From Lentilactobacillus parabuchneri DSM 5707 = NBRC 107865 (GTDB lineage Bacteria > Bacillota > Bacilli > Lactobacillales > Lactobacillaceae), in NCBI RefSeq assembly GCF_001435315.1, contig NZ_AZGK01000010.1, forward strand, positions 1-64,000: a stretch of DNA of 64,000 nt. Direction: 5' to 3'. A program made the translations under genes and the position numbers. The notes beneath the pieces are model-generated. The model ran no database searches, was not told the DNA's origin, and saw only the letters and a list, made by a program, of their open reading frames with translations. Positions 42,716 through 62,420 of this stretch are shown here, in pieces (positions within the stretch are counted from its first letter, which is position 1; each line of letters begins with the position of its first letter).

Positions 42716-44512
42716 TCATTTCAGATCCCTAGAAGTTAATTCCAATTGATCCCAGAAAGTCGGGAACAGATAATTATTATAAGCAGCCTGCTTGAAGTTC
42801 TTCACCCGATGATTGACGGGTGTGAAGCTCAACAGCGTACTCTGTGGTGCATAAGCTGCTTCTTTATTCATATAAACCTGCCACTTCTTAAACTGCTTGA
42901 TCCGATACTTTTGATTCCAAGCTTTATTGTTATTAAGACTATTGAGTAATTTGGTATTTTTCTTGGTGACAAAATGCCCCATGTTATAAGTAGCATCTTC
43001 GCCGTAGAACTGAGTTGGGGTTGGTTCGTAAGTCAATTGCCAGCCACCGACGAAAACGTCAATTTTATTTTGCTTCGGTTCACCCAGAATTGAGTAGAAA
43101 CTATTAATTTCAAGTGGTCGGCCATTTGTCATTTGAACATTTAAACCCAATTTACGCCACTGCTGAACCTCGTAGCGAGAAATTTCGTTGCTGGCTGCAG
43201 ATCCCTGCATGGCACCGAAGTGAATTGTCAACTTCTTGCCATTGGGTTGAACGTACCATTTTCCCTTCTTCTTGTACCCAGCCTCTTGAAGCAGCTTCTT
43301 GGCCTTGGCCATATCATACGGGAAGCCGGCTGCCTTTGAATCATGGTATTTTTTAAAAATCGGTGGAATTAGGGTATTGGGTCGCCATTGAACACCACTT
43401 AATAGCTTCTTATTGACCTTGTCCAAATCAACCGAGTACAGCATCGCTTTTCTCAGGTTCTTATTGCCCATCTTACTGTGTTTATCCATCACATTCTTGT
43501 TTTTCTTGGTATCAAAGTGACCGACATTAAACCCAAAATAGCCATAACTGAGTCCGGGGGCTCCGGCTAAGGTATAACCCTTGATGTCCTTAACTGATTT
43601 ATATTGACTAGCGGGCAAACCGCCAAGCGCAAAATCATACTTTTTCGCTTTAAAGGCGGCAGCGGCGTTGCTTGAAGAAACGACTTGGATATTGATGTGT
43701 TTGATCTTTGGTTGCTGACCCCAATAATATTTATTGGGAACCCAAGCAGTTGATTCACCTTGAACCTGATTATGCAGCTTGTAAGGTCCGACAAAGATTG
43801 GGTGTTTTCGAACTGCTGGCGCTGACGAGAGTTTTGAAATTTTCACATTCTTTATGTGATTGTATGGAACCACCGTCCCCCATAAGAAAGAGTTTCCGGC
43901 GTACTGCATGGCTGGTGAAAGATGGGTGTAGGAAATCACGACCTGCTTACCATTTTGACCATGAGGATAGGTAATTCCGGAAATACTTTTGGCTTTTCCC
44001 TTGTGGTAAGCGGCCATTCCCTTAATCGTCGCCATGTCGGCCGAATACTGTTGGGCAGTCGTATTCTGATTGCCGATAATTTCATATGCATATTCAACGT
44101 CCTTGGCAATAACCGGGCTGCCATTCGACCAGCGGGCATTCTTTCGAATCGTAATGGTTGCCGTGTTGTTTTTTCGGTCTAACTTTAGATTGGCTAATCC
44201 ACCCTTAACGATCTTGAAGTCTTTGTTGCTCTTAAAAAGCTGATCACCGCCACCCGGAGAATAAACATCAGAATCTTCGACATTATCCTGTAAAACTGCC
44301 AGCGTGATTCCTGTGAAGGGTGCATCAACGACCTCTGCAGCATTCAATGTGCTGTCATTCCCCGCCTTGGTCGCCTTTTCGGGAGCACTGTAGGTTGTCG
44401 GCATGGAAATTGGTTTGGATTGAGACTCAGAACTTTTATTCGAACAGGCCGCAACGGCCAGAGCTGAAAAGCTAACGGCTCCTAACACCAACCACTTCTT
44501 ATTCATCTTCAT
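42716..44512 (-). CDS. Oligopeptide-binding lipoprotein (SBP family 5), solo
   Basis: A 598-residue extracellular solute-binding protein. The signal peptide ends FSALAVAACS with the lipobox cysteine. Family 5 signatures include ARWSNGSPVIAKDVEYAYE and LRKAMLYSVDLDKVN. Peptide uptake through an Opp system is expected, but no permease or ATPase genes are adjacent, so it must share them. GGGG lies eight bases before the ATG and a near-consensus promoter is upstream. Confidence 0.88.
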   Translation of the reverse strand: MKMNKKWLVLGAVSFSALAVAACSNKSSESQSKPISMPTTYSAPEKATKAGNDSTLNAAEVVDAPFTGITLAVLQDNVEDSDVYSPGGGDQLFKSNKDFKIVKGGLANLKLDRKNNTATITIRKNARWSNGSPVIAKDVEYAYEIIGNQNTTAQQYSADMATIKGMAAYHKGKAKSISGITYPHGQNGKQVVISYTHLSPAMQYAGNSFLWGTVVPYNHIKNVKISKLSSAPAVRKHPIFVGPYKLHNQVQGESTAWVPNKYYWGQQPKIKHINIQVVSSSNAAAAFKAKKYDFALGGLPASQYKSVKDIKGYTLAGAPGLSYGYFGFNVGHFDTKKNKNVMDKHSKMGNKNLRKAMLYSVDLDKVNKKLLSGVQWRPNTLIPPIFKKYHDSKAAGFPYDMAKAKKLLQEAGYKKKGKWYVQPNGKKLTIHFGAMQGSAASNEISRYEVQQWRKLGLNVQMTNGRPLEINSFYSILGEPKQNKIDVFVGGWQLTYEPTPTQFYGEDATYNMGHFVTKKNTKLLNSLNNNKAWNQKYRIKQFKKWQVYMNKEAAYAPQSTLLSFTPVNHRVKNFKQAAYNNYLFPTFWDQLELTSRDLK

Positions 44513-44989: not shown

Positions 44990-46387
44990 ATGAATTCAGA
45001 AGAAAAACAGTCACTTATCAAGTCTGTCAACGAAGCCTCACCAGATCGCCTACGTCAGTTTATCATTAACCAGGCACAATACGACCCCTCATTTTTCCAA
45101 GACGTTACCGCGCAATTTGGTGAGTTGGATACAGATGCTGAATTTGCTAAAACAAAAAAGCTCATCCAAAGTACGATTCGCCATAATAAGACCTACGGAT
45201 TCATTGATTATCAGGGATGTATTGACGTCTGCAATACCCTGGATGACATTATTAACAAGTACATGCTTCGATTCCGTCAGGGACATTACCAACACGCGTT
45301 ATCCGGATTATTACTGGTGGTTACCACATGTGGCCGGATGCTCTCAACGGCGGATAGTAGTTCCGGTGCCCTCACCGATACCTTTGACCGCGTCTTTTCC
45401 GCGATGAAAAATTTAAGCACCAACATTGCGCCAACCCTCTTGGACACTCAAAAAGATGCACTCGTCAAAGAAGCCATTCGCACATTCAAACGGAAACTAT
45501 TTGCCGATTGGGCTGAGCAACGTTATAAGATTCTGTATAATGTGTTACCGCTCATCACCGAAAAATCCGCAAAATTAATACAAACTGCTTCCAAAAATGT
45601 TATCAAGTCAGTTGAAGCCGGCTATGACCAGGTCCAATCGCAAATTCAAGATAAAATCTTAAATGCCCGGATTTTAATTCAACTAGGCCAAACTGATGCG
45701 GCCTATGAATTTATGAACGAAAATAAAGATATTCCAGAAATCCGTGAAGTTGCCATTCAAAATGCAATTCAAAATAAGGATTATCCATTAGCCGAACGAC
45801 TGTCCTTGCAGGCATCTGAAAAAGATCCGGGCTGGCGACGAATTTGGGAGCGGTATCTGATCAAGATTTATGACGCCACCGACCAACAGCAAAAGCAGCA
45901 GGAGGTTCTCGAAAAACGCTTATTCGCAAACTATCCGGATGCGTTTGAACCACTCAAAAAATTATTGAAGCAGACCGGCCAGTGGAACAATGAGCGCCCA
46001 CGCATCATGCAACTGGCCGCCAAGCATCTGACACCCGAGAACAACGCCTATGTTTTAGACAAAGAGGGCCAATGGGACCAGTTGATCCAACTTGTGATGC
46101 AGAATCCTTCACTAACGGAAACCTACAGCGAACACCTTTACAACAGCTATCCCGATATGGTGAGTCGCATCTACTACCAAAACGTGATCTTAAATGACAA
46201 GAACCCCAGCAGACAAGCCTATCGTCGAATGGGTCGCAGAATTAAGAATTACGCGGAATTTGGAAATCCCAAGACCGCAATTAAGTGGATTGATGGCTTG
46301 ATCGAAAAATACCCAACTCGTCCAGCAATGGCTGAAGAATTGGGTAAGGTAAAAGATAAACTGATTAAAAAGGGCGAGTTGCATTAA
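44990..46387 (+). CDS. Hypothetical 465-residue helical-repeat protein
   Basis: A soluble, mostly alpha-helical protein with no signal peptide. Regions such as LIQLGQTDAAYEFMNENKDI, LAERLSLQASEKDPGWRRIW and FGNPKTAIKWIDGLIEKYPT look like TPR-type helical pairs. I do not recognise a named family; the arrangement resembles the C-terminal helical part of SWIM-finger proteins, but no zinc finger is seen. GAGGAGGG precedes the ATG by 11 bases. Its stop overlaps the stop of the converging flavodoxin-like gene. Confidence 0.75.
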   Translation: MNSEEKQSLIKSVNEASPDRLRQFIINQAQYDPSFFQDVTAQFGELDTDAEFAKTKKLIQSTIRHNKTYGFIDYQGCIDVCNTLDDIINKYMLRFRQGHYQHALSGLLLVVTTCGRMLSTADSSSGALTDTFDRVFSAMKNLSTNIAPTLLDTQKDALVKEAIRTFKRKLFADWAEQRYKILYNVLPLITEKSAKLIQTASKNVIKSVEAGYDQVQSQIQDKILNARILIQLGQTDAAYEFMNENKDIPEIREVAIQNAIQNKDYPLAERLSLQASEKDPGWRRIWERYLIKIYDATDQQQKQQEVLEKRLFANYPDAFEPLKKLLKQTGQWNNERPRIMQLAAKHLTPENNAYVLDKEGQWDQLIQLVMQNPSLTETYSEHLYNSYPDMVSRIYYQNVILNDKNPSRQAYRRMGRRIKNYAEFGNPKTAIKWIDGLIEKYPTRPAMAEELGKVKDKLIKKGELH

Positions 46388-47145
46388 CGACGACGATGTT
46401 TAACGACCGTGAAGAAATGAAGAATACATCCTAACAACACGTAGAAGATAACCACAAACGATGCGTAACGCCACCAAAAATCGGCAGTGGAAACCAACCG
46501 CAAACCAACTTGAATACCCATTGTTAACAGGGCCATTACAGCAACCATGAAGAACAATTCAATATATCGTTTCAATGTACTATCATCTCTCTTTTTGACT
46601 GAATTCAGGCGATGTCCCCATTTGAGGCAGGCCTGTTTTTTATTTTCCGGTAATTCTTTCATGCCCCAGGTGTTGGTCAAAACCAATTCATGGATTTTGA
46701 TGACCCCGGCAGCTGACATCACCTTATCGATCGTTCGAAAACTTTGATCGGTCACACCGGTAACCCAGTTTTCGAATGCACCGGTATAACAATCCGTAAT
46801 GCTTAAGTAGTGCTTATCTTTAAACCGATCCGGATGCGTGCCGCCATCATGATCAAAACGCACCAAGCGCTGGCGCATGCAGTCAAAGAAGTCCTTCATT
46901 TTTCCTGCTAATCCGCCCCAATAAGTTGGTGCTGCAATAATCCAAACGTCACTTTCCAGCATCTTTTGTTCAAGTTGATCCAATACCGGATCCTTTTGAT
47001 CCCCCTGGTCCGGCTTAAATGGAAAGTCTTCCAGATAAACAGTTTCAGTGGTATTGGGTGCTTGGACCCCTGATAAGACCGTATCCATCATCATTTTCGT
47101 CACGCCGTCACTTCTATGTGACCCTAAAATACCAAGTATTTTCAA
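46384..47145 (-). CDS. Flavodoxin-like NAD(P)H:FMN reductase with membrane tail
   Basis: A 253-residue fusion. Residues 1-185 are a flavodoxin-like reductase: ILGSHRSDGVTKMMMD (FMN phosphate loop), IIAAPTYWGGLAGKMKDFFD and GGTHPDRFKDKHYLSITDCY. The C-terminal 60 residues carry two transmembrane helices (YIELFFMVAVMALLTMGIQV and YASFVVIFYVLLGCILHFF). The start is the TTG at 47145, six bases after GGGGGA. It follows mntH by 34 bases without a terminator, so it probably belongs to the hemH-mntH transcript. A ferric or quinone reductase role at the membrane is inference. Confidence 0.82.
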   Translation of the reverse strand: MKILGILGSHRSDGVTKMMMDTVLSGVQAPNTTETVYLEDFPFKPDQGDQKDPVLDQLEQKMLESDVWIIAAPTYWGGLAGKMKDFFDCMRQRLVRFDHDGGTHPDRFKDKHYLSITDCYTGAFENWVTGVTDQSFRTIDKVMSAAGVIKIHELVLTNTWGMKELPENKKQACLKWGHRLNSVKKRDDSTLKRYIELFFMVAVMALLTMGIQVGLRLVSTADFWWRYASFVVIFYVLLGCILHFFTVVKHRRR

Positions 47146-47179
47146 GATCAATCCCCCTTTAACATTTTTTGATCATAAC

Positions 47180-48508
47180 CTAAAATGCTGCGAACACAAA
47201 CTGAAGATTTAAGACTGTAATGATCGCCGTCAGTAGATAACCGATAATGGTGACGTATTTTTGATTGGTATGAACACCCATTAAATCCCGGTTGCTGGTC
47301 AATGCCACCATCGGAAATAAGGTAAATGGCAGTGCAATTGATAAGGCAATCTGGGCGTAAACAATAATTTGTTCAAAGTCATGATCGTTAAATCCAACCA
47401 AAAACCCAATTGCCAAAATCGGAATCAAAGTCACAAACCGGGTGAGCAATCGACGTTCCCAAAGCGGCAATCGAATATGGAGGTAACCCTCCATTACAAT
47501 CTGCCCAGACAAGGTGCTGGTAATTGAGGATATCATCCCCGTAATCAGTAACGCGAACGCAAACAATGTACTCATCAACGGACTTGCCAAGCTGCCAACC
47601 ACTGCCGAATTTTTCAATCCATTATAGACATCTTGAAATGCAGACAGCTGACCGCCAGTGTGAAAGAACAGCGTTCCACCCAATATCAGGAGTAAGGCGT
47701 TAATTAGGAACGCCGCCACCAAATGCACATTCGAATCCCATTTCGCAAACCGCAAAGCCTCTTTGACCTGCTTGGGATCGTGATAATCGTAACGGCGACT
47801 TTGCGCCAACGATGAATGCAAGTAAACGTTGTGCGGCATAATCGTTGCCCCAACAATCCCTAAACTCATAATCAGCATTTCATGATTGGTGAGAATTTTC
47901 GAAGTTGGCACCATACCGCTAATAATCTGCACCATATTCGGGTTGGATCGGCCAACTTCAATGCCAAAAATAATCCCAACCGTCAATATTGATGCCAAAA
48001 CAATTAATTCAATTCTTCTAATTCCAAATCTTAAAAATAATAGCACTAACAAAACATCTAAAATCGTTAATAAAATACCGTACAACAGTGGCAGGCCAAA
48101 TAAGAGTTTCAATGCAATCGCTGTTCCAACAACGCCTGTCATATCCGTCGCCATCATCGCTAATTCATTAATAATCCATAATGTATACCGGCCGGACTTG
48201 GGGACCTTCTGGGCAATCGCCTGGGCCAAATCCAAGCGTGCCACAACCCCCAATTTGATTGATAGCGTCTGCATAAACATTGCGACGAGAATGGACATCA
48301 GCAGAACCGATAATAATGAATATCGAAATTGACTACCACCCGACAAGGACGTGAGCCAGTTTCCGGGATCCATATAGCCAACGGCAACCAATGCGCCCGG
48401 TCCACTATAGGCTAAAAATTTTTGGACAAATGACGTTTCATAAACACTTGGAACCTCGACGCTTTGATTAATTTCGTCAAGGCTTCTATGCGTTTCATTT
48501 TGACTCAT
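47180..48508 (-). CDS. mntH: Nramp Mn(II)/Fe(II) transporter MntH
   Basis: A 442-residue Nramp transporter with intact metal-site motifs: MDPGNWLTS in TM1 and TIMPHNVYLHSSLAQSR in TM6. It imports Mn(II), and often Fe(II), with protons; manganese is central to oxidative defence in lactobacilli. The ATG overlaps the last base of the ferrochelatase stop, so the two are translationally coupled. It contrasts with the altered Nramp at 24863-26134. Confidence 0.95.
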   Translation of the reverse strand: MSQNETHRSLDEINQSVEVPSVYETSFVQKFLAYSGPGALVAVGYMDPGNWLTSLSGGSQFRYSLLSVLLMSILVAMFMQTLSIKLGVVARLDLAQAIAQKVPKSGRYTLWIINELAMMATDMTGVVGTAIALKLLFGLPLLYGILLTILDVLLVLLFLRFGIRRIELIVLASILTVGIIFGIEVGRSNPNMVQIISGMVPTSKILTNHEMLIMSLGIVGATIMPHNVYLHSSLAQSRRYDYHDPKQVKEALRFAKWDSNVHLVAAFLINALLLILGGTLFFHTGGQLSAFQDVYNGLKNSAVVGSLASPLMSTLFAFALLITGMISSITSTLSGQIVMEGYLHIRLPLWERRLLTRFVTLIPILAIGFLVGFNDHDFEQIIVYAQIALSIALPFTLFPMVALTSNRDLMGVHTNQKYVTIIGYLLTAIITVLNLQFVFAAF

Positions 48509-49461
48509 CAGTCAGCCCCCTCAGATAATTGTTTCACACTGAGATCGGCCAAGAACTGGCAAAAGTCATCACTTCCATTCATCGGCTTTACGGCATCAAA
48601 GGTATTGCCACCGCTAGCCTTGAAAGTTTGGTAATTTTGAACATTATTTTCTTCAAGTGTCTCCAGACAATCCTCAACAAAAGATGGTGTCACTAATAAC
48701 ACGCTTCGTTTGCCCATTGCCGCCAGTTCCATCAACGTATTCTTTAAATATGGCTTTAGCCATGGCATCGGTCCAAACTTTGACTGATAGACGGTCTGCA
48801 CCTTTTCTGCAGGAACCTTGCGGAGATATTTCTGAACCCCTTGGGTGGTTGCCACACATTCCTGAGGATAGGGGTCACCCTTCTTAACCATCGACATCGG
48901 AATGCCGTGGTAACTGAAGATAACCGCATCATAATCCTTCTTCGCGTATGCATCATCGACTTGCCGAGCTAAAATTTGTCGATAGGTTGGCTGATCATCA
49001 AAATTTTTAACCAGGTGTGTTTTAACCCCGGACGCCTGGACCTTTTCGATAATCGTATCGTGCGTACTCTGGGTATAATTAGGAAACAATGGAATAACAA
49101 CAATATCGCTATCCCCATTTTGATGCATTTGCCGCAACACGTCTACAATCCGTGGCTGCCCATAGTTCATCGCATACTGGACGTCCCAATCCGCCAAAAT
49201 CTGTTGAACTTTTTGCTGCATGATCTCTGTGTAAGCTGTTAATGGCGATCCCGCCTTAGTCCACATATGCTGGTAAAAAGTCGCTGAGCGCCAAGTCCGC
49301 ATGGGCAATACCATTCCACGCAAAATTGGCTGCCAAAACCATTTCGGCAGCGTCACAACATTTTGATCGCTTAAAAATTCTGTCAGATATGCTTTTACGT
49401 CGGTGTTGCTTGGTGAAACTGGTGACCCTAGATTCACCAGTAACAAGCCCTTTTTTCCCAT
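48508..49461 (-). CDS. hemH: Ferrochelatase
   Basis: A 317-residue ferrochelatase that inserts iron into a porphyrin. The active-site histidine is in VIFSYHGIPMS and the glutamate in TPSFVEDCLETLEE. The N-terminus LLLVNLGSPVSPSNTDVKAYL and FLSDQNVV follow the E. coli HemH pattern, and the tyrosine typical of Firmicute coproporphyrin ferrochelatases is not at that site. No other heme genes are in the window. The ATG at 49461 has GGAGGGG six bases before it. A promoter candidate is TTCACA, 16 bases, TATAGG near 49513-49486. Confidence 0.93.
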   Translation of the reverse strand: MGKKGLLLVNLGSPVSPSNTDVKAYLTEFLSDQNVVTLPKWFWQPILRGMVLPMRTWRSATFYQHMWTKAGSPLTAYTEIMQQKVQQILADWDVQYAMNYGQPRIVDVLRQMHQNGDSDIVVIPLFPNYTQSTHDTIIEKVQASGVKTHLVKNFDDQPTYRQILARQVDDAYAKKDYDAVIFSYHGIPMSMVKKGDPYPQECVATTQGVQKYLRKVPAEKVQTVYQSKFGPMPWLKPYLKNTLMELAAMGKRSVLLVTPSFVEDCLETLEENNVQNYQTFKASGGNTFDAVKPMNGSDDFCQFLADLSVKQLSEGAD

Positions 49462-49640
49462 GACGATCCCCTCCTCGCCGTATATCCTATATTTTAGAGG
49501 TTTCCTATGTGAAAAACAATTCAATACCTGTAAATAATTAAGGTAGGTACTGAAAAATTCTTTTTATCACTTAATTCTGCGTCAACCATGAAATTATGCG
49601 CCATGTTGGTTACAATGGAAAGTGGGAAGGACGTGATACC

Positions 49641-49937
49641 TTGAACGACTCCAAAGACTATCTGGATTTTTTTAACCAGACGTATAACGATCCCAGCAAG
49701 CATAGTGGGTACAGCACCAATAGTAATCTCCGGTTCGAAAGTCGAGCCGATGCCTTGGCGGTCAAAAATCTTTTGATCGAAAAAAGTCCAAGCGCAAAAC
49801 AATATGAGTTTAGTGTTGAATATATTAACCCGAATAAATCGATGCAGGTCGGCTGGTACATCACCGTCAAAAAAATTGAGCAGGAGCCGGTCAAGGATCC
49901 CGCTTCTAAACCAATAAAAAATAAAAAGAATCCATAG
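49641..49937 (+). CDS. Hypothetical small protein
   Basis: A 98-residue soluble protein of unknown family with a basic, proline-rich tail (PVKDPASKPIKNKKNP). The TTG at 49641 is preferred because GGAAGGA lies nine bases upstream; an ATG at 49596 gives 113 residues without a ribosome site. The core (LRFESRADALAVKNLLIEKS, then a beta-like stretch VGWYITVKKIE) has codon-like composition. Its neighbours give no functional hint. Confidence 0.6.
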   Translation: MNDSKDYLDFFNQTYNDPSKHSGYSTNSNLRFESRADALAVKNLLIEKSPSAKQYEFSVEYINPNKSMQVGWYITVKKIEQEPVKDPASKPIKNKKNP

Positions 49938-51118: not shown

Positions 51119-52768
51119 GTGAAATTCAATAAACACTTACTAATGATCACTGGCGTTCTCGCTGTTATGCTGGTACTTGCCGGCTGCGGTAACAACAGCT
51201 CTTCCACTAAATCCAGTAAACAGATGGCAAAGGACCAAACGATCAATCTCAGTACCAGTTCAGAGATTTCTACTTTGGACATCGCTAAAGCCTCTGATAG
51301 CGGCAGCTTGACGCCCCTCTACCAAATTAGTGAAGGAATTTATCGCTTGGGGCCAAAATCAAAAATTGAAAACGCCCTCGCTACCAGCACCAAAGTTTCC
51401 AACGATGGCTTAACTTATACGTTCAAATTGCGGACAAACGACAAATGGAATAACGGCCAACCTGTGACCGCCAAAGACTTTGTCTACGGCTGGCGGCGAG
51501 TTGTCAATCCAAAAACGGCTGCTGGGTATTCCTATTTATTTGAAGGTGTCAAGAACTACAGTGCCATCCAAAAGGGCCATCTGTCTGCCAATAAATTAGG
51601 TGTTTATGCGCCAAACAGCCACACATTGGTGGTCAAACTTAGCCACCCGGTTCCTTACTTCAAACTATTACTGGCATTTCCAACCTTTTTCCCACAACAG
51701 GAATCCGCAGTTAAGAAGTATGGCAGTCGATATGGAACCAGTAGTGCAACCACCGCGTACAATGGTCCGTTTGTCCTCTCCAAATGGAACGGGACCAGCG
51801 ATACTTGGACTATGACAAAGAACCCCAATTATTGGGACAAGAAACACGTTAAGGCGCACCAACTCGACTTCCAAGTGATCAAAACACCAAGTACGGGATT
51901 GTCACTCTACCAACAAAATAAACTCGATGTGATTAGTCTATCGGGAGAAGAAGTCCCAACCTACAAGAATCGACCCGAGTTTAAAAAGTTTGTCGGCGGC
52001 TCGACCATGTACCTGGAGATGAACCAAAAACGGGTGAAGGCATTGAAGAATACCAAAGTTCGTCAAGCACTTTCTCGTATCATTAACAAACAAACTTTGG
52101 CCAGCCAAGTTCTTCGTGACGGCTCAACGGCACCCAAGGGATTTGTTTCAACCAACTTCTTCCGTAATCCAAAGACCGGTGCTGATTTTGCCAAGGATGC
52201 CTATGAAAAAGATGGGGTCGCCTATAATCAGTCCCAGGCGAAGAAACTTTGGCAGCAAGGCATGAAACAAGTTGGTCAAAAGAAGCTCCACTTATCGCTT
52301 CTAAGTGACGATACAGATCAGTCAAAAAAGACGACTCAATACCTGCAGAGTCAATTCAACAAGCTACCTGGATTGAGCATCACGATTCATAACGTACCCA
52401 CCAAGAGCAAATTGTCCCGCTCAACCAGCGGTGATTTTGACTTAGTCGTTTCCTCGTGGGGCGCTGACTTCGCGGACCCAATCAATTTCTTGGACCTGCT
52501 GACAAAGAGCAATCCAACTAACAACGGTCATTGGGTGAACGCGACTTACGATAAGTATATTGAAGCATCTAAGACAACCGATGCCAACAATCCTGACAAG
52601 CGTTATGACGATTTGGTGAATGCTGAAAAAGTCCTAATGAAAGATCAAGGAATTGTCCCACTGTACCAGCCAGCAACGACGCAACTCTGGCGGACGAATA
52701 TCCATGGATTTGTGTGGAATCCGGCCGGCATGAGCAACGGCTATAAAGGCTTGTACGTTACGAAATAA
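51119..52768 (+). CDS. Oligopeptide-binding lipoprotein OppA-like, solo
   Basis: A 549-residue family 5 solute-binding protein. The signal peptide MKFNKHLLMITGVLAVMLVL ends in the lipobox LAGC. Domain signatures include RTNDKWNNGQPVTAKDFVYG and RQALSRIINKQTLA. It starts at GTG with GAGGT seven bases upstream. No transport genes adjoin it. It is of the DppE/OppA branch and differs clearly from the 598-residue binding protein at 42716-44512. Confidence 0.9.
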   Translation: MKFNKHLLMITGVLAVMLVLAGCGNNSSSTKSSKQMAKDQTINLSTSSEISTLDIAKASDSGSLTPLYQISEGIYRLGPKSKIENALATSTKVSNDGLTYTFKLRTNDKWNNGQPVTAKDFVYGWRRVVNPKTAAGYSYLFEGVKNYSAIQKGHLSANKLGVYAPNSHTLVVKLSHPVPYFKLLLAFPTFFPQQESAVKKYGSRYGTSSATTAYNGPFVLSKWNGTSDTWTMTKNPNYWDKKHVKAHQLDFQVIKTPSTGLSLYQQNKLDVISLSGEEVPTYKNRPEFKKFVGGSTMYLEMNQKRVKALKNTKVRQALSRIINKQTLASQVLRDGSTAPKGFVSTNFFRNPKTGADFAKDAYEKDGVAYNQSQAKKLWQQGMKQVGQKKLHLSLLSDDTDQSKKTTQYLQSQFNKLPGLSITIHNVPTKSKLSRSTSGDFDLVVSSWGADFADPINFLDLLTKSNPTNNGHWVNATYDKYIEASKTTDANNPDKRYDDLVNAEKVLMKDQGIVPLYQPATTQLWRTNIHGFVWNPAGMSNGYKGLYVTK

Positions 52769-57360: not shown

Positions 57361-58056
57361 TTACATTGCAACTGGACGATTCTTCAACCGAATCGCCTGC
57401 TCAAAATTATCTGTGATAATCCCGGCAACGTGATCCGCCAGCAGCTTCTCTTGCGTCTTTGGATCATCCACCGTCCAAATTCGCTCATCAACGTTTGCTA
57501 ACGGCTGATAGTGACTCAAGTGAAGTCCGGCGAGGTGCTCCTTGATGATCAGGGCTTTAGCATCCTTAATCACGTGATCAGACAACAGGCAATATTGTTG
57601 GCTTGGATCAATCTGGTAAGCCTTCTTTAATGAGTCCAGGTTAAACGAGGAGTAGATCACCGGATACGTCAAGTCATACTGCTTAACCAAGTCAAGAACG
57701 ATTTGCTCAATGTTGGGATAATGAATCTTGTTGGTCTTGAACTCAAGATTCAAATGAACTGGACGGTGAACGGCCAATGACAACAGGTCTTTTAGCATCG
57801 GAATGGTCTCGCCATCCCGCATATGAAACTGTTGAAGTTCCTTCAAAGTATACGAACGAATCAGTCCGCTACCGTCTGTCGTTCGGTTAATCTTTTCATC
57901 GTGCATGATGACGGGAACATTGTCTTTAGTCAGGTGAACATCAAATTCTAAGCCATCAATACCATGATCAATGGCATATTTGAATCCTTTTAAAGAATTT
58001 TCGGGGAATTTAAATGGGTACCCGCGGTGTCCAAAAATCAGTGTTCTATTAGTCAA
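57361..58056 (-). CDS. glpQ: Glycerophosphodiester phosphodiesterase
   Basis: A 231-residue cytosolic-type GDPD (UgpQ-like, no signal peptide) that splits glycerophosphodiesters to glycerol-3-phosphate. It has the family start FGHRGYPFKFPENSLKGFKY, then GLEFDVHLTKDNVPVIMHD with metal-binding Glu and Asp, and LNLEFKTN. The start is TTG with AAAGGAAG eight bases before it. It closes the ugpCAEB operon, which would import its substrate. Confidence 0.93.
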   Translation of the reverse strand: MTNRTLIFGHRGYPFKFPENSLKGFKYAIDHGIDGLEFDVHLTKDNVPVIMHDEKINRTTDGSGLIRSYTLKELQQFHMRDGETIPMLKDLLSLAVHRPVHLNLEFKTNKIHYPNIEQIVLDLVKQYDLTYPVIYSSFNLDSLKKAYQIDPSQQYCLLSDHVIKDAKALIIKEHLAGLHLSHYQPLANVDERIWTVDDPKTQEKLLADHVAGIITDNFEQAIRLKNRPVAM

Positions 58057-58131
58057 TATTATGACTTCCTTTCAGTCCTTCAACTCTCTTAATATGCTTC
58101 CCTTCAAGACGTCTTCATGCCTTAATGGAAG

Positions 58132-59496
58132 CTATCTGCCATTTGCTTTGTTGGTCGTCTTCAGGTTCGCATTCATCGCCTTATTAGCGGTGTTTAATGC
58201 GCTGTTGATATTGCCGCCGTCATAAACGGTTTCCATCGCCGTTTCTTCCAGTTCACGAGTCAACTGCATCCCCTCCATCAAAATTCCGGAGTTGGTGTTA
58301 TTTGGCTTGGCACTGGCCAACTGCTCGCCAGGAACTTTGGCCGCAGGAATCTTTTTGTACAAGTCTTGCAAGACTTTTTCCTTCTGTGAGTTCTTGTTCA
58401 AAGCCAAGTAGCCGGTGGCCTTTTGCCATTCAGCTTGATTCTTGGATTTTTCGGCGAATTTGATGAATTCCCATGCACCTCTTTGCGTCTTTTTAGGCTT
58501 GTCATTTGAAATCCACAGAGCCGCACCACCGATCCCGACACCATTGGCTTTAACACCATCTGGATGTGGGAAGTATGAAATACCCAGCTTGTTCTTGGTC
58601 CCGGTCGTTAACTGACCGATGTAGGCTGATGATTGAACAAAGATACCCAACTTATTTGCCAGGAATGCGGCAATTTCGTTGTTTTCGGCACTCGAACCAG
58701 AGCCATAGTTGACGAAGTCGCCGGATTTAATATTCGTTCGAATCCAGCTCAAAAACTTTTTAGTCGTTGGATTATTCAAATTAATCTTAGTTGGCGTTCC
58801 CGTATGACCATCACCGTTATTGATGAGTGACGTATGTGCGTTGGCAAGAGCTTCTTCCATCAGCCAGCCATAAATCTCCATCGTCATCCCCTTAACCTTG
58901 TGATGAGACTTTTCGTAAAGCTCTTTAGCTGCTCGGGTAACCTCACTATAACTTGGTGATTTGGAAGGTGGCGTTACACCATACTTTTTGAACAATGATG
59001 CGTTGTAGTATAACACCGGTTGTGACGTATTAAACGGCATGGCCAGCTGCTTACCCTTGTTTGAGTAAAACGATCGGGCAACAGGTGAAATGTCACTGAC
59101 GTCATAGTTGTCTTCATCAATAAACTTCTGAACAGGGGTGGTGTACTTACTGTGCATCATTTGCGCGGTTGAAATATCAAACGACTGGAATAATGCAGGC
59201 GACGCACTCGTTCCGTGACTTTGGATAATCTTTTGAACCGCTTCATCATAAGCCCCTTGGTATTGAGGAATTACCTCGTACTTGTTTTGTGACTTGTTAA
59301 AATCATCCACTAGTTTATCAAGTGCAACTTCAGCTGGGCCACCCATTTCATTCCAGAAAACAACTGGTGTGCGACCGGCCTTGGCAGAGGTCGCATTTTT
59401 GGAGCCATTTACAAAAACGATACCCAAGACAATGGCAAAAACCGCAAAAATCGGTAACGCATATGCTTTGAGGAATGCTGTCAATTTTTTCATCAT
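58132..59496 (-). CDS. ugpB: Glycerol-3-phosphate/glycerophosphodiester-binding protein UgpB
   Basis: A 454-residue family 1 extracellular binding protein (VVFWNEMGGPAEVALDKLV; MPFNTSQPVLYYNASLFKKY). The N-terminal hydrophobic stretch (LPIFAVFAIVLGIVFVNG) has no lipobox cysteine, unlike most Gram-positive binding proteins. It is either held by an uncleaved helix or cut by signal peptidase I after SAKA. It overlaps ugpE by four bases. Confidence 0.9.
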   Translation of the reverse strand: MMKKLTAFLKAYALPIFAVFAIVLGIVFVNGSKNATSAKAGRTPVVFWNEMGGPAEVALDKLVDDFNKSQNKYEVIPQYQGAYDEAVQKIIQSHGTSASPALFQSFDISTAQMMHSKYTTPVQKFIDEDNYDVSDISPVARSFYSNKGKQLAMPFNTSQPVLYYNASLFKKYGVTPPSKSPSYSEVTRAAKELYEKSHHKVKGMTMEIYGWLMEEALANAHTSLINNGDGHTGTPTKINLNNPTTKKFLSWIRTNIKSGDFVNYGSGSSAENNEIAAFLANKLGIFVQSSAYIGQLTTGTKNKLGISYFPHPDGVKANGVGIGGAALWISNDKPKKTQRGAWEFIKFAEKSKNQAEWQKATGYLALNKNSQKEKVLQDLYKKIPAAKVPGEQLASAKPNNTNSGILMEGMQLTRELEETAMETVYDGGNINSALNTANKAMNANLKTTNKANGR

Positions 59497-60323
59497 TTAC
59501 CAGCACCTTCATTCACACCTGACTTGAAGTAATGTTGTCCGATAAAAAGGACAATTAAGGTTGGAATGACCACGATCGCTGCAGTAGCTTGAATCATGCC
59601 CCAATCGTTAAATGTCTCTTCAGATTGAAGTTGACGCAATCCATTTTGAACCGGGCGAAAATCATTACTGAAGGTGGTCAGCATTGGCCACAAGTACTGA
59701 TTCCAAGCGCCCAAGAAGCTGTAGGCACCCAAAGTCATCAGCGGAATGCGGTTATAGGGTAGCACCATTTTCCAATAAAATTGAAAGTGACCGAGCCCTT
59801 CAATATCAGCAGCTTCCTTTAACTCAATTGGCATTTGCATAAATGACTGACGGAGCATAAAGACACCAAAAGCTGATGTTAGAAATGGAATCACCATTAC
59901 TGAGTAGCTGTTTAACAGGCCCATTGCTTTAACTGTTTGAAAGTTGGGAATGATTTCAGCTTCAAACGGCAGCATCATCGTTGCCAAAAATAAACCAAAT
60001 AAGAATTTACGACCCCTGAACTTCAAGAAGACAAATGCATAGGCACTCATCGAACAAAAGATCAGTTGGGCAATCATGGTAGCCGTTGAAATCACCAGAC
60101 TATTTCCCAGATACCTGAGAATTGGCGTTTGCGTAAAGGCATCAATATAGTTCTGGAAGGAAACTTTGGTGCTCAAGAAATTTCCCTGAGCAATTTGCAT
60201 TGTTGGTAAAAAGCTGGTCCACAGACCGATCAGAAACGGTGCTAAAACAACAATTGCGAGAATTGTCAGTAGTGCATAGTCCCAAATTCGCCGGGACAAC
60301 TTCGGCTTTGTGACGATATCCAT
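59493..60323 (-). CDS. ugpE: ABC permease UgpE
   Basis: A 276-residue MalG-type permease with six helices. The coupling EAA loop reads ELKEAADIEGLGHFQFYWKM, contacting the ATPase. ATG overlaps the ugpA stop. It pairs with UgpA to import glycerol-3-phosphate or glycerophosphodiesters. Confidence 0.92.
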   Translation of the reverse strand: MDIVTKPKLSRRIWDYALLTILAIVVLAPFLIGLWTSFLPTMQIAQGNFLSTKVSFQNYIDAFTQTPILRYLGNSLVISTATMIAQLIFCSMSAYAFVFLKFRGRKFLFGLFLATMMLPFEAEIIPNFQTVKAMGLLNSYSVMVIPFLTSAFGVFMLRQSFMQMPIELKEAADIEGLGHFQFYWKMVLPYNRIPLMTLGAYSFLGAWNQYLWPMLTTFSNDFRPVQNGLRQLQSEETFNDWGMIQATAAIVVIPTLIVLFIGQHYFKSGVNEGAGK

Positions 60324-61285
60324 TAGTAATTCACCCGCTTTTCTAAGACTTTGAATTGAAGGTATGTGAAGGCAGCGATAATAATTGTGAGAATAATGGA
60401 TTCGGCACTTGCCTGAGCATAATTACCGCTGTAAAAGGCATCCTTGTAAATACGGTAGACCAGCATATTTGTTGCGTTCGTTGGGCCACCTTTTGTCATC
60501 AAATCAATCAGGCCAAAGCTCTTAAATGATTCAATCAAGGTAATGATGGATACGAAGAACAAGGTTGGCGAGATTGATGGCACCGTGATGTGAAAGAATT
60601 GGAACCGAGAAGAAGCCCCCTCAATGTTGGCTGCTTCATACAACGTGGTTGGAACTGAGGACATTGCGCCAAGTAAAATCAAGAACGTAAAGCCCAGGTT
60701 CATCCAAACGGTGGTAATAATGACTGCCCACATCGCTGCAGTCGGATTCGTTAACCAGGGGATTTGCGGCAAATGCATCCAGGTACTGATCAAGGACAAG
60801 AACCCAGTTGACGGGTTAAAAATGAATAGCCAGAAGATAGCGGCAACGGAGACTGAAACCCCCATAGTTGCCGAAAATAATGTCCTAAAAATCCCAATTC
60901 CAGGAAGGCGTTTGCTTGCCAGGTTGGCCAACAATAGCCCTAACGCAATCGTGATGATGGTCACTGCAAATACATAGAAGAGCGTAACTCCAACACTGGA
61001 GATATAATCAGCTGAGGTTAGCAAATTAATATAATTGGAGAGACCAACAAACACCGTGGCCTTGCCGACAGTATTGGTTAAAAATAAACTCAGGTAAAGG
61101 GTCCGAAACATTGGGTAAAAAATGAAAACGCCTAAGATCAATAGTGAAGGTCCCAAGAATATCCAAGCAAAATACTTATCCTTGGCATTTAAGGAAAAAT
61201 GAGCTTCCTGGGCTTTCAGCTTATTCTTCGTCTTTTCAACCGAAAGTGGTGTGGTCGGCGTACTCTGTGCTGGTGATTTAAGCAT
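60323..61285 (-). CDS. ugpA: ABC permease UgpA
   Basis: A 320-residue MalF-type permease with six helices and a 40-residue cytoplasmic N-terminal extension. The EAA loop reads LYEAANIEGASSRFQFFHIT. The ATG at 61285 is preferred because AAGGAGG lies nine bases upstream; another ATG at 61291 is too close. It overlaps the end of ugpC by eight bases. Confidence 0.92.
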   Translation of the reverse strand: MLKSPAQSTPTTPLSVEKTKNKLKAQEAHFSLNAKDKYFAWIFLGPSLLILGVFIFYPMFRTLYLSLFLTNTVGKATVFVGLSNYINLLTSADYISSVGVTLFYVFAVTIITIALGLLLANLASKRLPGIGIFRTLFSATMGVSVSVAAIFWLFIFNPSTGFLSLISTWMHLPQIPWLTNPTAAMWAVIITTVWMNLGFTFLILLGAMSSVPTTLYEAANIEGASSRFQFFHITVPSISPTLFFVSIITLIESFKSFGLIDLMTKGGPTNATNMLVYRIYKDAFYSGNYAQASAESIILTIIIAAFTYLQFKVLEKRVNY

Positions 61286-62366
61286 GTACATAAGCCTCCT
61301 TAGAAATGTTTAATCGATCGCCTTTTGCATCAAAAAACATCAAGTTGGAATCTGCACTGACTTTGATTGGTTGGTAGATTCGGTAGTTAACTTGGCCGGG
61401 AACAACAACGTGAATGTTCTCTCCACTATTAAGCGTGGCGTAGACGATTGTTTCGTCTCCCAGAAATTCAGTGTTTTTAACGACTGCGTTGGATTCGATG
61501 CTGTCCGCGGCTTCAGCTTTCATATCATCTGGGCGAATCCCAATTTTGACATCTTCTGCCGGTACTTCTTGATCAAGGGCAATTTCCAAGTCTGATGAAA
61601 CGTTCAATACGTGATGATCAGTCTTGGAACGTTTGGCTGATAAAATATTAATTTGTGGTGTCCCAAAGAATTTTGCCACGAAGTCATTGGCTGGGTTTTG
61701 GTAAATTTCGCTTGGCGTGCCAATTTGCTGCACGTGTTTGTCGTTGAGCACCATAATGTGGTCGGCCATGGTCATTGCTTCCACTTGATCATGGGTTACA
61801 TAAATTAACGTCAGCCCAAGTTTTCTTTGCAGTGCGTAAATTTCTTGACGCATTTTAATTCGGAGTTGGGCATCCAAGTTGGACAATGGTTCGTCCATCA
61901 AACAAATTTTGGCATCACTGGCAACCGCACGGGCAAGTGCCACCCGTTGTCGTTGACCGCCGGATAGTTCACGGGGCTTGCGTTTACCCAGTTCTGTCAA
62001 ATTAACCATTTTAAGTGCTTTATCAACGCGTTGTTTAATATCTGATTGATCCATTTTGCGCGCCTTTAAGCCAAACGCAACGTTGTCCCAAACACTCATG
62101 AATGGGAACAAGGCATAGTTTTGAAAGACCATCGTTAATTTTCGAGCCTTAGGTGGTAAGTCATTGACGACCTTATCATCGATACTGACCTCGCCTGCTG
62201 TAATTGGCGTCAAGCCGGCAATCATTCTGAGCAGCGTACTTTTCCCACATCCGGAGGGGCCGACGATGACGAAGAACTCGCCAGTCTCAACCTTTACCGA
62301 AATATCCTCCAGGACATCTGTTTGGGCGTCGTAATCTTTACGGACGTTTCTTAAAGTAATTGACAA
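61278..62366 (-). CDS. ugpC: ABC ATPase UgpC
   Basis: A 362-residue sugar-type ATPase: Walker A GPSGCGKSTLL, signature LSGGQRQRVALARA, Walker B ICLMDEPLSNLD, then a C-terminal TOBE domain (VKIGIRPDDMKAE). The start is the TTG at 62366, eight bases after GAGG; the in-frame ATG at 62420 is within the regulatory region and unlikely. It is the first gene of ugpC-A-E-B-glpQ. Confidence 0.92.
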   Translation of the reverse strand: MSITLRNVRKDYDAQTDVLEDISVKVETGEFFVIVGPSGCGKSTLLRMIAGLTPITAGEVSIDDKVVNDLPPKARKLTMVFQNYALFPFMSVWDNVAFGLKARKMDQSDIKQRVDKALKMVNLTELGKRKPRELSGGQRQRVALARAVASDAKICLMDEPLSNLDAQLRIKMRQEIYALQRKLGLTLIYVTHDQVEAMTMADHIMVLNDKHVQQIGTPSEIYQNPANDFVAKFFGTPQINILSAKRSKTDHHVLNVSSDLEIALDQEVPAEDVKIGIRPDDMKAEAADSIESNAVVKNTEFLGDETIVYATLNSGENIHVVVPGQVNYRIYQPIKVSADSNLMFFDAKGDRLNISKEAYVHA

Positions 62367-62420
62367 ATATCTCACCTCAAAATCATTTATTTCGTTACAA
62401 ACATTATTGTGGGGGTTCAA

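Follow-up and report, generated by a model that had tools for sequence, protein, structure and literature searches.

A ferrochelatase-linked Nramp carrier without the TM3 glutamate: a possible natural rewiring of iron delivery to heme in manganese-filled lactobacilli

In part of the Lactobacillaceae a ferrochelatase gene (hemH) is followed directly by a gene for an Nramp-family metal carrier (mntH), and every distinct carrier of this linked clade lacks the TM3 glutamate of the Nramp proton path. We propose, at about even odds, that in lactobacilli rich in manganese and equipped with cytochrome bd this carrier is dedicated to supplying ferrochelatase with Fe(II), and that its proton coupling is altered. 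The two genes would then form an operon for the final step of heme assembly in hosts that have cytochrome bd and lack porphyrin synthesis: HemH would put Fe(II) into scavenged protoporphyrin, and the co-translated MntH, of the clade that follows this ferrochelatase, would provide HemH with that Fe(II). Such an arrangement would explain in concrete terms how lactobacilli rich in manganese put iron, not manganese, into heme.

Locus layout and conservation of the linkage

The window, that is, the whole 64,000-nucleotide stretch of DNA that was analyzed, comes from a Lentilactobacillus genome whose nearest relatives are L. sunkii, L. parakefiri, L. otakiensis, and L. kefiri (third protein 87–91%). 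Three genes follow one another on its minus strand in the order hemH, mntH, and a flavodoxin-fold third gene:

49484..49513, minus strand: promoter-like site upstream of hemH, TTCACA-18-TAGGAT, 9/12
48508..49461, minus strand: hemH, protoporphyrin-type ferrochelatase, 317 aa, ATG start (PF00762, E 8.8e-91)
47180..48508, minus strand: mntH, Nramp-family metal carrier of the ferrochelatase-linked clade, 442 aa, 1-base overlap with hemH
47146..47179, minus strand: gap of 34 bases between mntH and the third gene, with the ribosome-binding sequence AAAGGGGGA inside and terminator and promoter absent
46384..47145, minus strand: third gene, flavodoxin-fold FMN reductase-like protein, 253 aa, TTG start

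As a sequence-only reading of this DNA had noted, the hemH stop and the mntH start overlap (TGATG, with base 48508 in common), and the third gene begins 34 bases beyond the mntH stop (47180) with no terminator between them. Its TTG start at 47145 is better placed behind AAAGGGGGA than the alternative TTG at 47151. A separate promoter and terminator between mntH and the flavodoxin gene, which would have spoken against a common transcript, were found by neither of two scans: the site scan returned no minus-strand promoter-like or terminator-like site in the gap, and a hairpin-plus-T scan returned no terminator there. Over the whole scan the number of promoter-like sites was close to that expected by chance (16 against 11.2 ± 3.3). 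The segment TTTCACA...AAACCTCTAAAATA upstream of hemH is found again in 5 of the 10 Lentilactobacillus that were aligned, and a motif search upstream of hemH yielded no convincing regulator box. Downstream of the third gene lies a convergent gene with a weak TPR match (44990–46387, plus strand). Divergent from hemH is a gene for a 101-aa protein (49632–49937, plus strand) that recurs in Lentilactobacillus (cluster of 11) and has no Pfam match. Oligopeptide-binding-type proteins (SBP_bac_5) are encoded on both flanks (42716–44512, minus strand; 51119–52768, plus strand), and a set resembling an ABC sugar-phosphate importer stands beside a glycerophosphodiesterase-like gene at 57361–62420 on the minus strand (ORF list, by eye).

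One draw of 201 Lactobacillaceae genomes was searched with each of the three proteins: 56 genomes have HemH, 76 have the third protein, and 197 have some kind of MntH. The hemH and mntH genes are adjacent, mntH directly after hemH, in 18 of the 201, spread over 7 genera, and they overlap or almost touch in 10 of 10 named loci (gaps of −23 to +2 bases, counted up to where the protein alignment begins). The linkage is more than chance. Loci were read for 41 of the 56 hemH genomes; for the other 15, known from sequence searches only, the family search found no linked-clade MntH, and another MntH copy could lie beside their hemH. The pair is not obligatory, because three HemH proteins of the linked clade (G102, G193, G018) have no mntH alongside. 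In a further genome, G045 (L055:4502–5740), hemH is intact and the adjoining mntH is split into two reading frames, perhaps through gene decay or through an error in the sequence.

Beyond the family, the linked MntH clade was not seen in a draw of 295 genomes from the order, where the best MntH of another family reached 53%. No MntH gene lay near hemH in the 20 genomes inspected among the 36 non-family genomes with hemH. The linked carrier was likewise absent from plasmids, the MntH of 208 of 208 plasmid records falling below 60% identity, and the one Levilactobacillus brevis plasmid Nramp inspected is not adjacent to hemH. In the open-licence PMC literature, as distinct from subscription journals, we found no paper on the hemH-mntH pair or the linked clade.

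In Lentilactobacillus the third gene comes next after the pair in all 5 pair genomes of the draw and in another 6 named species, which makes 11 distinct members of the genus. In the 13 pair genomes from other genera it never does so, and 9 of these have it at another site. Four Lentilactobacillus genomes without the pair are alike without the third gene and without CydA. Directly 3′ of mntH, 7 of the 13 other-genus pair loci (L047–L053) have a hairpin and T run (−10 to −32 kcal/mol); in the other 6 (L054–L059) the hairpin scan gave no clear terminator, with a GC-rich stem obvious by eye in L057. The interval between mntH and the third gene in Lentilactobacillus held only weak chance hairpins (−0.6 to −5.2) and no convincing terminator, in a scan that extended past the start in 5 loci where the start motif was unmatched. 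The trio amounts to an older hemH-mntH operon that was extended within a single genus. Of the earlier reading of the three genes as one module, the hemH-mntH part stands across the 7 genera, and the whole-trio part is rejected, the third gene being joined to the pair only in Lentilactobacillus.

The carrier and its proton path

The carrier belongs to the Nramp family (PF01566, E 3.7e-96, 322.7 bits against a cut-off of 29.8) and exceeds the NCBIfam MntH cut-off (NF001923, 473.9 against 430 bits). We built a tree from 27 linked rows, 4 of them duplicates (23 distinct proteins), and 60 other MntH, which were best-scoring hits rather than a random sample (48 from Lactobacillaceae, 12 from other families of the order). 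The linked proteins form one clade with support 1.0, and in the 201-genome draw this clade never occurs without hemH (18 hits at 58–100% identity, next best 51%). The positions that matter are these:

48359..48370, minus strand: DPGN metal-binding motif, TM1 (alignments)
48134..48136, minus strand: mntH codon 125, Gly for the usual Glu (EcoDMT E129 / DraNramp E134; PDB alignment with 5M87 and 5M8A)
47828..47839, minus strand: MPHN metal-binding and proton motif, TM6 (alignments)
47723..47725, minus strand: mntH codon 262, His in 23/23 linked proteins; the 60 others have Gln (59) or Glu (1)

The absence of the conserved TM3 glutamate had escaped the sequence-only reading. The alignment to PDB sequences, which include EcoDMT (5M87) and its E129A mutant (5M8A), is gap-free at position 125. 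All 23 distinct linked proteins carry a small residue here (Gly in 22, Ser in 1), as against Glu in 60 of 60 others; the lone Ser belongs to G112, the deepest branch in a further MntH tree. The broken mntH of G045, kept outside these counts, likewise reads ATDLTG. The metal site is retained: every aligned linked row (27, of which 23 distinct) has D47, N50, M224, and H226, and the full DPGN/MPH motifs are present in 17 of 17. Also kept in all 27 are E115, D122, H231, R352, R353, and R357, and with them the rest of the proton path (EcoDMT E119, D126, H236, R368, R369, R373). The DraNramp numbering of metal-site and proton-path residues other than the TM3 glutamate follows the literature rather than our own alignment. 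An AlphaFold2 model of MntH was set aside (mean pLDDT 47.8).

The TM3 glutamate is reported to be 98% conserved in canonical Nramp proteins (PMC6398981), and mutants described in the passages cited here indicate what its loss may do. EcoDMT E129A still carries Mn at a moderately lower rate, loses its pH dependence, and leaks protons, and E129Q behaves much like wild type and couples protons likewise (PMC5230734). In DraNramp, neutralizing E134 abolishes proton uniport and severely reduces the Mn-associated proton flux, with significant metal transport remaining (PMC6398981). The matching E116A in the clade B protein BfraNramp abolishes metal transport (PMC12873925). EcoDMT and DraNramp thus disagree on the effect of losing the glutamate, a leak in one and a lost proton flux in the other, and since E129Q couples like wild type the glutamate would not be the sole proton acceptor. 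These E129 and E134 mutants nevertheless make altered coupling a sound prediction for the linked MntH. Because the clade has swapped the glutamate for Gly or Ser, its members probably move metal without normal proton coupling, as uniport or leaky transport. Against this stands the persistence of H226 and D122; an outright loss of function is argued against by 23 conserved proteins with predicted intact metal sites.

The strongest competing account, which we rate as rather unlikely, is that the two genes are an ordinary metal pair, the linked MntH being a proton-coupled Mn(II)/Fe(II) importer that tolerates Gly125 and makes up for it through His262 or other changes. It draws on the full retention of the remaining proton-path residues, on the 12 positions with disjoint residue sets in linked and other MntH (including A124T, E125G, and Q262H), of which A124T and Q262H might compensate, and on the wild-type-like behavior of EcoDMT E129Q (PMC5230734). 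The replacements in the clade, however, are never Gln; they are uniformly small and free of a carboxylate. A more specific form of our proposal, that a clade C Nramp lineage was uncoupled by loss of the TM3 glutamate and captured by ferrochelatase as its dedicated Fe(II) feeder, is a tentative one that we rate as somewhat less likely than not. If true, this would be a natural uncoupled Nramp that delivers iron to heme in manganese-loaded, acid-making cells, perhaps with Fe(II) passed directly to ferrochelatase at the membrane. Why Nramp proteins co-transport protons is not yet fully explained, according to a 2026 preprint (PMC12873925), and a clade beside ferrochelatase that has lost the TM3 glutamate and kept the other examined proton-path residues is a ready-made test case.

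Porphyrin supply, heme use, and the third gene

HemH has its catalytic His at residue 185 (codon 48907–48909) and its catalytic Glu at residue 267 (codon 48661–48663), both aligned with human ferrochelatase and present in 60/60 and 59/60 aligned HemH, respectively. Its best solved relatives are human ferrochelatases (2PO7, E 7.7e-30); the Gram-positive coproporphyrin ferrochelatases trail far behind at about 1e-11, and the score against the Bacillus-type coproporphyrin model NF009095 (60.2) is below the cut-off of 455. HemH proteins of the pair group together, 18 linked with 3 unlinked nested among them (support 0.958). Searches of the window genome found neither URO-D nor ChdC (PF06778, present in 4 of 201 family genomes), which points to dependence on imported porphyrin and bears out the earlier picture of a ferrochelatase-Nramp transcription unit that needs it. 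Coproporphyrin, which that reading had also entertained, is an unlikely substrate, because HemH fits the protoporphyrin type far better and ChdC, the enzyme required downstream of a coproporphyrin ferrochelatase, is absent; judged from these matches, HemH should act on imported protoporphyrin.

A user for the heme is at hand. CydA occurs in the window genome and in 18 of 18 pair genomes, as against 132 of 201 in the family overall; permuting the labels inside each genus gives an expectation of 14.7 for the pair genomes (P 0.0014). The association is missing for unlinked hemH (28 seen against 27.8 expected, P 0.61). At four loci of a genus labelled g33 (L066, L065, L078, L079), unlinked hemH follows a gene for a sortase-looking protein of 226–232 aa (by eye). 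Catalase and FeoB were both absent from the window genome. FeoB is present in 6 of 18 pair genomes and 23 of 38 unlinked-hemH genomes (Fisher P 0.086, kinship ignored), which is only suggestive of MntH as a FeoB substitute. Lactobacillales are described as manganese-centric (PMC10606218, PMC9606685), and in E. coli excess Mn with low Fe is reported to stall ferrochelatase (PMC4361602); a carrier linked to ferrochelatase would ensure that Fe(II) arrives when it is required.

HemH and MntH might instead form a protective module that handles excess porphyrin, heme, or metal, by metallating phototoxic porphyrin or by releasing iron from heme, and not build cytochromes. The lack of URO-D in the host agrees with this, as does the Zn-protoporphyrin reported to be formed by lactic bacteria in meat (PMC7692285), but the presence of the heme user CydA in every pair genome, an association that holds within genera, makes such a role improbable.

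The third protein matches FMN_red (PF03358, E 2.7e-16, 60 bits, cut-off 24) and falls short of the SsuE and MsuE equivalog cut-offs (23.6 against 164.05 and 27.8 against 212.5). At E 0.001 only FMN_red and Flavodoxin_2 were reported, with no match to a HemG-type family. We take HemG to be a member of a different flavodoxin family. The C-terminus adds one further feature:

46396..46584, minus strand: two-helix membrane hairpin of the third protein, residues 188–250 (hydropathy, AlphaFold2)

The two membrane helices of the earlier description are borne out by hydrophobic stretches in windows starting at residues 193–201 and 223–232, and by helices 188–214 and 220–250 in an AlphaFold2 model of moderate quality (mean pLDDT 68), of which we use the fold class alone. 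Charges flanking the hairpin (KKR...LKR before, KHRRR after) predict a cytoplasmic flavin domain. Its polar residues Q212, H243, and H250 are conserved at 95% or more in 47 aligned loci, some of them duplicates, a conservation beyond what a plain anchor would call for. The third protein tracks CydA: of the 76 genomes that have it, 72 also have CydA, where the within-genus expectation is 65.3 (P 5e-5), and 43 lack hemH. G007, which is counted among the 76, has fragments only. Its neighborhoods in other genera (20 regions, by clustering and by eye) have no constant partner; genes for thiol-peroxidase-like, MFS-like, and NAD-binding proteins recur nearby in two or three genera (by eye). A close relative with an in-frame stop occurs at L041:6001–6759 (Ligilactobacillus pobuzihii, other genus name).

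The sequence-only reading had the third protein reduce iron at the membrane ahead of import by MntH. The adjacency without a terminator in Lentilactobacillus and the FMN reductase family speak for it; the predicted cytoplasmic side of the flavin domain weakens it, and with the gene unlinked to the pair in every other genus and so many carriers devoid of hemH we think it very unlikely. Less likely still is a HemG-like protoporphyrinogen oxidase acting before ferrochelatase, which the flavodoxin fold, the membrane hairpin, the neighboring hemH, and the CydA association would suit and the matched families and the 43 genomes without hemH do not. A respiratory or redox role fits the third protein better than ferric reduction. 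On this view the Lentilactobacillus operon would have acquired a flavin or quinone reductase that is anchored in the membrane, faces the cytoplasm, and has its role more probably in respiration or redox balance than in the uptake of iron.

Comparison with known systems

Over the whole carrier, the best PDB matches of the linked MntH are the clade C importers ScaDMT (5M94, E 3e-115) and EcoDMT (5M87, E 4e-109). Like them it keeps DPGN and MPHN; unlike them it has Gly or Ser for the TM3 glutamate (EcoDMT E129) and His for Gln at 262, and its gene is co-directional and overlapping with that of a ferrochelatase. The proton-independent clade B protein BfraNramp provides a precedent for an Nramp without proton co-transport and is, in the account of PMC12873925, the reverse case: it keeps the glutamate and is without the charged TM3/TM9 residues. 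For HemH the closest solved relative is the human protoporphyrin ferrochelatase (2PO7), with which it aligns at the catalytic His and Glu; the window enzyme differs in being bacterial, in a host without URO-D. The third protein appears to share its fold with SsuE, MdaB, azoreductases, and NQO (TM-score by query 0.37–0.50, from the predicted model), and differs from these flavoproteins in its extra conserved two-helix membrane hairpin.
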